This document shows, one piece after another, positions 18,015-37,144 of a stretch of 58,489 nt of DNA. The stretch covers positions 1 to 58,489 of the forward strand of contig JAPLEZ010000073.1 in NCBI GenBank assembly GCA_026390935.1, in the 5' to 3' direction. Numbering within the stretch: position 1 is the stretch's first letter; every line of letters begins with the position of its first letter. This stretch comes from Bacteroidota bacterium (GTDB lineage: Bacteria; Bacteroidota; Bacteroidia; Flavobacteriales_C; GCA-002722245). The position numbers and the translations under genes are program-made. Under the pieces are notes generated by a model. It did not search any database. It was not told the DNA's origin and saw only the letters and a program-made list of their open reading frames with translations.

Positions 18015-18519
18015 ATGAATACCGAAGAAAAAGAAACTCAGGAAATCAACAACGAAAACCCTCAAGAAAACACAGAAGCCGCTACAGACAAGGCTCCTGA
18101 GACAGCTGAGGACAGAATATTTACGACTCTATTCAGAGTTCGACAATTTCAGAAAAAGAACAATTAAAGAAAAAAGTGAACTGTACAACAGTGCCACTTC
18201 TGACGTATTTAAGCTATTTCTGCCAGTTTTGGACGATTTTGACAGAGCTGCCAAGTCGGTAAAAGAAGCACAAGACATTAAAAGCTTGAAAGAAGGAGTT
18301 GAACTCATCCGTCATAAACTCATTCACACTTTAAAACAAAAAGGTTTGGAAGAGATGGATGCGAAAGGCAAAGAATTCAATGGCGATTTACACGAAGCCA
18401 TTACTGAAATCCCTGCTCCTAGCGACAAACTCAAAGGAAAAATAGTTGACGTTGTTGAAAAAGGATATACTCTCGACGGAAAAATTATCCGTTACGCAAA
18501 AGTAGTTGTAGGTAAATAA
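18015..18519 (+). pseudogene. grpE: GrpE nucleotide-exchange factor, interrupted by a frameshift
   Basis: GrpE releases ADP from DnaK. An ATG at 18015 opens a GrpE-like acidic N-terminus (MNTEEKETQEINNENPQ) that stays in frame to about 18112 and then stops at AAT TAA. The family core (EYLRLYSEFDNFRKRTIKEK, then VLDDFDRA and the C-terminal beta domain) starts at 18115 in another frame and runs to 18519. Joined, the product would be about 167 residues and lack most of the long coiled coil before the core. This looks like a deletion that is not a multiple of three, in the cell or in the assembly. It is 15 bases upstream of dnaJ. Confidence 0.85.
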
Positions 18520-18534
18520 GAGCGCTAAAAAATT

Positions 18535-19671
18535 ATGGCAAAGAGAGATTTTTACGAAGTATTGGGCGTAAGCAAAGGCGCATCAGAGGATGAAATAAAA
18601 AAGGCTTACCGCAAAATGGCATTGCAGTTCCACCCCGATAAAAATCCGGGCAACAAAGAAGCCGAAGAAAAATTTAAGGAAGCTGCAGCAGCCTACGATG
18701 TATTGAGCAACAAAGAAAAAAAACAACGTTACGATCAATTCGGTCATGCAGGAATGGGTGGTGCGGCAAGCGGCGGTGCCGGCGGATTTGGCGGCATGAA
18801 CATGGATGACATCTTCTCTCAATTTGGTGATATTTTCGGCGGAGGTTTTGGCGGCGGACAGCGTGGCGGACGCAGAGTTAATCGTGGTGCGAATATTCGC
18901 ATCAAAGTAACACTTACCTTGGAAGAAATCGGTACAGGCGTAGAAAAGAAAATCAAAGTAAATAAGCTCGTGGCTTGTGAAACATGCACAGGAACAGGCG
19001 CTGAAGCAGGTAGCGGACATGACACTTGCAACACTTGCAGAGGAAGCGGACACGTAACACGTGTGCAAAATACAATTCTCGGACAAATGCAGTCGACAGC
19101 TGTTTGTCCAACCTGCAGCGGCGAAGGAAAAACAATAAAAAACAAATGTAAAAAGTGCAGCGGCGAAGGGGTTGTTCGTGGCGAATCAGTTATTCCTATT
19201 AACATTCCCGCAGGTGTTCAGGAAGGAATGCAATTGCAGGTAAGTGGCATGGGTAATGCTGGAGCGCGTGGTGGAGTGAATGGCGATTTATTGGTGGTGA
19301 TTGAAGAAAAAGAACATGAAGTTCTTTCTCGCGACGGCAACGATTTGCACTATGATTTATTCGTCAACTTTGCTGATGCAGCGCTTGGCGGAGAGGCTAT
19401 TGTACCTGCACTCAACGGCAAAGTGAAAATCAAAATTGAACCGGGTACTCATGCCGGCAAAATATTGCGACTCAAACACAAAGGTTTGCCCAATGTGAGT
19501 TATCACGAAACTGGCGACTTGTTGGTAAACATTAATGTTTGGACACCTCAAAAGTTGAGTTCCGACGAGAAAAAACTGATGGAAAAATTACGCGAATCCG
19601 AAAACTTCATTCCTCATCCAGGTAAAAAAGACAAAGGATTTTTCGCCCGTATGAAAGAGATGTTTGAGTAG
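18535..19671 (+). CDS. dnaJ: Chaperone protein DnaJ
   Basis: Co-chaperone that stimulates the DnaK ATPase. 378 residues: J domain with HPD at 33-35, a Gly/Phe-rich linker (about 75-120), four CxxCxGxG zinc repeats ([32 protein letters not shown]) and the C-terminal substrate-binding domains. All parts are intact, unlike the upstream grpE. The pair is evidently one operon. Confidence 0.97.
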
Positions 19672-34326: not shown

Positions 34327-36931
34327 ATTTCAAATACGCTTTCGCTTTACTCAACGCGCTTGAAATCCCATTTAAATTAGTTCCTCCAGCATTGGCGTAA
34401 AAAGCTTGTCCGCCACCGCCACCTTGAATTTCTTTGGCCAATTCACGAACAATATTTGAAGCATTCAAAGATTTATTTTTAACCAATTCTTCATTGATCA
34501 CCACACTTAAATTAGGCTTACCTCCTACTTCAGCTGCAAGCACCATAAACAAGTTAGGAACTTCCGACTTCAACTGAAAACACAAGTCTTTCAGCGCATC
34601 GGCAGAATCTAAATCAATTTTTTCAGCCAAGAAACTAACACCATTAATTTGCTCTACTTTTCCAAGTAATCCCGACTTAATTCCTTTTGCTTTTTCATTT
34701 AACAAAGAAGAAATTTCCTTGGCCAAACGAGCGTTGTCATCCAATACTTGTTGCAATGCTTTTTTAATGTCCTTCGGATTTTTCATCACCTCTTTTACTT
34801 CCTGTAAAAGTTGTAACTGCTCATTGATATAGGCATCCGCCTTTTCTCCGGTAATGGCTTCAATCCTACGAATTCCGGCAGCAACAGCACTTTCGGAAAG
34901 AACAATTACTTTCCCGATTGCGCTGGTAGAATGCACGTGGCATCCACCACACAATTCCACTGAATCGCCAAACTGAACCATTCGCACTTTATCACCATAT
35001 TTTTCACCAAACAAAGCCATTGCTCCGCGTTTTTTTGCTTCATCAATGGCGATAGCTCTTTCTTCTTGCAAAGGAATATTGGCGCGAATATTAGCATTTA
35101 CAATTTCCTGAATTTCCATCATTTCTGATTCGCTCACTTTTTGAAAATGAGAGAAGTCGAAACGTAAATTATTTTCATTAACCAACGATCCCTTTTGCTC
35201 CACGTGCGTTCCCAAAACCTTGCGCAATGCATGATGCAACAAATGTGTAGCCGAGTGATTCGCCTCTGTAGAAGCACGTTTATTTTTGTTCACCACCGCC
35301 TTCACTTCTGCTTTAACATCGCCTGGTAACTTATCTAAGAAATGAAGAAAAACACCATTTTCTTTTTTACAATCCAGCACTGAATATTTTTCACCAGCCA
35401 CTTCCAAGTAACCACGGTCACCAACCTGTCCGCCACCTTCCGCATAAAACGGAGTGCTTTCCAATTCCACTTGCACCAATTCTTTTCCTTTGGCTTTTAC
35501 TTTACGGTAGCGCAAAATTTTAGAAGCAACTTCCAGTTTATCGTAACCTACGAATTTTCCTTCTCCGCTATTCACCGCAACCCAATCATCGGTTTCAACA
35601 ACTGATGCCGCACGGGAACGGTCTTTTTGTTTGTCGAGTTCGGATTGAAAACCCTTCATATCTACCGACAAACCCTTTTCACGAGCAAGCAAATCCGTTA
35701 AATCCACAGGGAATCCGAAGGTATCAAAGAGTTCAAAAGCAAAAGCGCCATCAATCACTTTAGTTGATTCACCTTTAACTTTCGCTTCAAATTTCACGAT
35801 TCCTTTTTCCAAAGTTTTCAAGAAGTTTAATTCTTCTTCTTTAATTACCTTCTCAATAAAGTCTTTTTGTTTTACCAGCTCAGGGAAGAATTTCCCCATT
35901 TCGTCCGCCAGCACTTGCACCAACTGATAAATGAAAGCATCATTCATTCCCAATTTACTGTATCCGTATCGAACAGCACGACGCAAGATTCTGCGGATCA
36001 CATAACCAGCGCCAGTGTTCGACGGCATTTGTCCGTCGGCAATAGCAAATGACACCGCACGAATATGATCAGAAATCACACGAATAGCGATATCCGTAGT
36101 TTCTGTTTCCCCATATTTCTTACCGGTTAATCCTTCAATTCTTTTTATCGTTGGTGTACAAACATCTGTATCATAATTAGATGATTTTCCTTGCATCACT
36201 CGCACCAAACGCTCGAAGCCCATTCCTGTGTCAACGTGCTGTGCTGGTAATTTTTCCAAACTACCATCAGCCTTGCGATTGAATTCCATGAACACGTTGT
36301 TCCAAATTTCTATCACCTGTGGATCGTCGTTATTTACTAATCCAGCGCCTGATACTTTTTTTCTTTCGGCGTCGGACCTACCATCGTAATGAATTTCGGA
36401 ACATGGTCCGCACGGACCTTGATCGCCCATTTCCCAAAAATTATCTTTTTTATTTCCGTTGAGAATTCTGTCTTCTGCGATGTATTTTTTCCACTCATCG
36501 TAAGCCTCCTGATCAAAACCAAGATTGCTGTCTTTGTCGCCTTCAAAAACAGTAACATATAAACGATCCTTATCAATTTTATAAACATCGGTTAGCAATT
36601 CCCAGGCCCACTGAATGGCATCTTTTTTAAAGTAATCGCCAAACGACCAGTTGCCCAGCATTTCAAACATGGTGTGGTGATAGGTATCTACCCCGACTTC
36701 TTCTAAGTCGTTGTGTTTTCCTGATACCCTCAAACACTTTTGTGTATTGGCGATACGCGGATGTTTCACCGGCGCGTTGCCCAGGAAAATATCTTTAAAT
36801 TGGTTCATCCCCGCGTTGGTAAACATGAGGGTGGGATCGTTTTTTACAACCATTGGAGCAGAAGGAACAACTTGGTGTCCCTTAGTTTCAAAAAACTTTA
36901 AAAACTGCTCGCGTATTTCAGCAGACTTCAT
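34325..36931 (-). CDS. alaS: Alanine-tRNA ligase
   Basis: Class II synthetase that charges tRNA-Ala. 868 residues from the ATG giving [20 protein letters not shown]; two codons upstream there is only a TTG. The catalytic domain has [17 protein letters not shown], the editing domain has the zinc ligands in [11 protein letters not shown] and [13 protein letters not shown], and the C-terminal C-Ala part ends with a Gly-rich [14 protein letters not shown]. It is divergent from the M23 peptidase gene. Confidence 0.97.
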
Positions 36932-37077
36932 ATGCAAATATTTTATTTTCTATGGCCATATGTTATGCCTATACTATCTTCATCTCTTTTTAAGAACTTT
37001 GCAGATAGGCATTTCATATACAATATTTTTAGTTCCGGATTTGCCGACAGTGGCTAAAACCCCATATTTACCAAGGC

Positions 37078-37108
37078 TTGCAACAACAATAAAATTTCCC
37101 TATCTTCA
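37078..37108 (+). promoter_or_regulatory. Possible promoter of the M23 peptidase-MerR operon
   Basis: TTG, 20 bases, TATCTTCA; close to the TTG-N19-TAnnTTTG consensus and 37 bases before the ATG at 37145. Confidence 0.45.
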
Positions 37109-37144
37109 CGACGCCTTGCGTAAAGTGCAAAGCTAATCAATCTT

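Follow-up and report, generated by a model that had tools for sequence, protein, structure and literature searches.

A 20-nucleotide deletion, probably accidental, breaks the reading frame of the only grpE in a Bacteroidota draft genome

How can the start codon and the conserved core of a grpE gene come to lie in different reading frames, directly upstream of an intact dnaJ, and does the cell still make GrpE from such a gene? The question is raised by contig JAPLEZ010000073.1 of an uncultured Bacteroidota bacterium, analysed here over a stretch of 58,489 nucleotides (the window), in which the frame change is present in the given sequence. The reading favored here, with a probability of about 0.88, is an accidental deletion of 20 nt that is either very recent or an artefact, rather than a new route to GrpE.

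The broken gene and its surroundings

The locus comprises the following features, the last of which lies elsewhere in the same genome:

17946 to 17985, forward strand: intact upstream element TGTC-N4-TGTC-N13-TGGCAY-N5-yTGC, sigma54-like (-24/-12), conserved and common to dnaK
18015 to 18167, forward strand: 5' fragment of grpE, an ATG-started ORF of 50 aa with the acidic N-terminus, followed by 17 codons out of frame before the stop
18114 to 18120, forward strand: junction, 20 nt short of all four same-genus genomes, where the gap slides along a short AATA repeat
18118 to 18519, forward strand: core of grpE, 133 codons plus the stop, read in the +1 frame and identical in amino-acid sequence to the relative G002
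18535 to 19671, forward strand: intact dnaJ, 378 aa
L031, 1419 to 1448: dnaK copy of TGTC-N4-TGTC-N13-TGGCA, followed by the sigma54-like -12 part as at grpE

As the original prediction had it, the N-terminus and the core are out of frame with each other. The frame started by the ATG encodes only the acidic N-terminus, which shares 29 of 33 residues with G002 up to the junction, and ends at a stop at 18165-18167. The core is carried by the next frame, open from 18019 to 18519; between 18019 and 18164 neither frame contains a stop. This second frame matches the GrpE profile PF01025 at 142.4 bits (cut-off 25.8), and no single frame runs from a start codon through the N-tail, long helix, bundle and beta domain of a GrpE. 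The neighboring dnaJ, also predicted to be intact, is complete for the three Pfam domains of DnaJ (the J, CXXCXGXG and C-terminal domains), and the genome contains one full-length copy of the DnaK gene.

The TGTC-N4-TGTC-N13-TGGCA pattern occurs at exactly two sites genome-wide, upstream of grpE-dnaJ and of dnaK, compared with none for the reversed-pattern control. Upstream of grpE the element is kept in all five genus members, and upstream of dnaK in G002 and G004; among the other families of the class, the frequency of the pattern is about that of the control. Control of grpE by sigma54 in Bacteroidota has already been published (PMC12316311). The genome has one rpoN (PF04552, 180 bits; G000:C82:64478-64951), consistent with the sigma54-like element.

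Size, position and age of the lesion

How much of the gene is gone? Comparison with related genomes, which the original prediction had called for, is informative in this respect. The genus sample consists of five genomes, this one included, and the other four all have an intact, single-frame grpE that is longer at the junction; aligned to them, the grpE of the window lacks exactly 20 nt, or about seven residues, one heptad of the long helix. The lost residues correspond approximately to residues 53-59 of E. coli GrpE (by alignment, counted by hand). The frame change had been placed at about 18112-18115, in good agreement with the junction at 18114-18120, but the proposed absence of about 25 residues does not hold, since in all four same-genus genes just 7-8 residues separate the breakage point from YLRLYSEFDNF. 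The description of a GrpE that lacks its coiled coil is overstated: about one heptad is missing.

Against both relatives tested, the optimal gap fits equally well after each position from 18114 to 18119, and up to 18120 against G002, an ambiguity due to the AATA that flanks the gap. G002 and G004 have a 5-nt match (AAATA) at an offset of 20. Across 19 kb of G002, a 20-nt deletion would come with microhomology of at least 4 nt at 2.1% of positions, and inside the G002 grpE at 6.0%; this rarity points to slippage. Two observations run against the favored reading: G002 and G004 also have a longer match, of 6 nt at an offset of 21, so that the 20-nt loss bypasses the longest repeat available, and one more base near the junction, an A-to-G, separates the window from its relatives and requires one change beyond the deletion.

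The core bears no trace of decay. Its 133 codons differ from those of G002 by 29 synonymous and no nonsynonymous changes, and with G004 as outgroup 11 synonymous and no nonsynonymous codon changes fall on the lineage of the window. The neutral expectation is about 74 changes (316 sites multiplied by half of a dS of 0.47, by hand arithmetic). If the lesion abolished function, this arithmetic would date any loss of function to roughly the last 4% of the branch. A decayed pseudogene under relaxed selection was thus rejected on these counts, a very recent loss being still compatible with them: an unchanged core protein alongside 29 synonymous differences leaves the choice between a very young loss and an artefact.

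Other routes to a working GrpE

Could the species live with this allele? That it obtains a functional GrpE, shortened by one heptad, through a frame shift at the break or from a CTG start, seems most improbable on the evidence taken together. GrpE was originally described as normally essential, and this holds in M. smegmatis, where it is required for growth (PMC4109909).

In the first of these alternatives, a working GrpE, one heptad shorter, would be made by +1 ribosomal frameshifting, or by transcript slippage, near 18114. The full amino-acid constraint on the core, the overlap of the two open frames and the retention of the promoter-like element are all compatible with it. However, the shift is not conserved. 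None of the four same-genus genes needs it, and the survey of grpE was extended to 110 Bacteroidota loci, 107 of them distinct (30 of 39 places, and 80 kept of 374). Among the 106 other distinct loci, 105 are intact, with an in-frame ATG at least 44 codons upstream of SEFDNF; in these, where the start can be counted, the most upstream such ATG lies 44 to 108 codons from the motif. The remaining locus, L044, has no in-frame ATG and is cut by the contig end. A frame break like that of the window is absent from all 106, and none of the 105 uncut loci requires a shift. Within the same family, the G007 genome (95% complete) yielded no match to grpE; for G009 (77% complete) there are two. By title and abstract, a frameshifted grpE is described in none of the published matches listed.

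Neither a conserved shift nor a recoding signal was found: judged by eye, the junction shows neither a stop nor a repeat typical of known +1 sites. In G002 and G004, too, the +1 frame across the N-terminus is open as far as the break, and there it has no function. The absence of the shift from every uncut relative examined contradicts a programmed shift, and frameshifting is accordingly very unlikely, in line with the original prediction that programmed shifting was unlikely.

Alternatively, an N-terminally truncated GrpE might start at a non-standard CTG (18097 or 18106) or at TTG18229, the internal start that had been suggested as a second possibility. In its favor, the two CTG codons are in frame, 7 and 4 codons upstream of the tyrosine that opens YLRLY. 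The core frame has no ATG, GTG or TTG ahead of TTG18229, however, and that codon is itself within the core: a protein started there would retain only positions 71-165 of the GrpE profile and lose positions 1-70, including the helix with FDNFRKRT. Moreover, removal of the 42-residue N-tail from the GrpE of M. tuberculosis led to a block in substrate release (PMC10803776). This effect and the requirement in M. smegmatis make a long-lived truncated GrpE unlikely, and an internal start is as poorly supported a route as frameshifting.

Least probable of all is a slow decay of this copy permitted by another intact grpE or by an exchange factor that replaces GrpE, as the core shows no decay, the genome (with an estimated completeness of 100%, yet in 155 contigs) has one profile match, and a DNA search with the G002 grpE found no other match above 36.5 bits.

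An accidental deletion, artefactual or recent

The favored reading is then an accidental 20-nt deletion. A replication-slippage type of loss between two AATA copies would have removed part of the helix-coding region of the single grpE, either in the cell or during library amplification, leaving start codon and core out of frame. If the event is real, it would be very recent in the lineage, and GrpE would presumably be broken or barely expressed.

Is the assembly itself prone to such errors? Non-overlapping ORFs of the window of at least 100 aa and at least 60% identity were screened for frameshifts against 59 kb of G002. Among 41 genes (36,372 nt), grpE was the sole frameshift, alongside 17 in-frame gaps; a candidate at 36711-37136 proved to be a chance match on an antisense ORF. 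The same comparison on contig C69 covered 23 genes (28.7 kb) with no confirmed frameshift, two candidates being dismissed as start-region effects. In all, grpE is the only frameshift in 64 genes (about 65 kb) compared with G002, and by this clean same-frame screen of both contigs the assembly is not generally prone to frameshifts. What is left is either a one-off artefact at this locus or a genuine deletion of recent date.

An artefact of library preparation, sequencing or assembly is given a little under an even chance, and a real recent loss in the lineage of this uncultured bacterium somewhat less than that, so that the two are about evenly split. The otherwise clean 65 kb and a junction resembling biological slippage argue against a plain assembly error. 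Conversely, a fixed real loss would be surprising in view of the growth requirement in M. smegmatis. In practice, a grpE without a start in a draft genome should be treated as a lesion for read-level checking, and not as a GrpE of unusual type. Were the present allele real, nature would have tested to what extent a cell can do without the long helix of GrpE.

Slippage deletions between short direct repeats are a general class of mutation, and the lesion seen here looks like an ordinary accidental deletion. As in that class, the 20-nt loss is flanked by a repeat of 4-5 nt; differently from it, the event may have taken place outside a cell. Compared with the GrpE family (PF01025), the core (142 bits), the grpE-dnaJ order shared with relatives and the single copy are all alike, whereas the start and core differ in frame and about seven residues of the long helix are gone.
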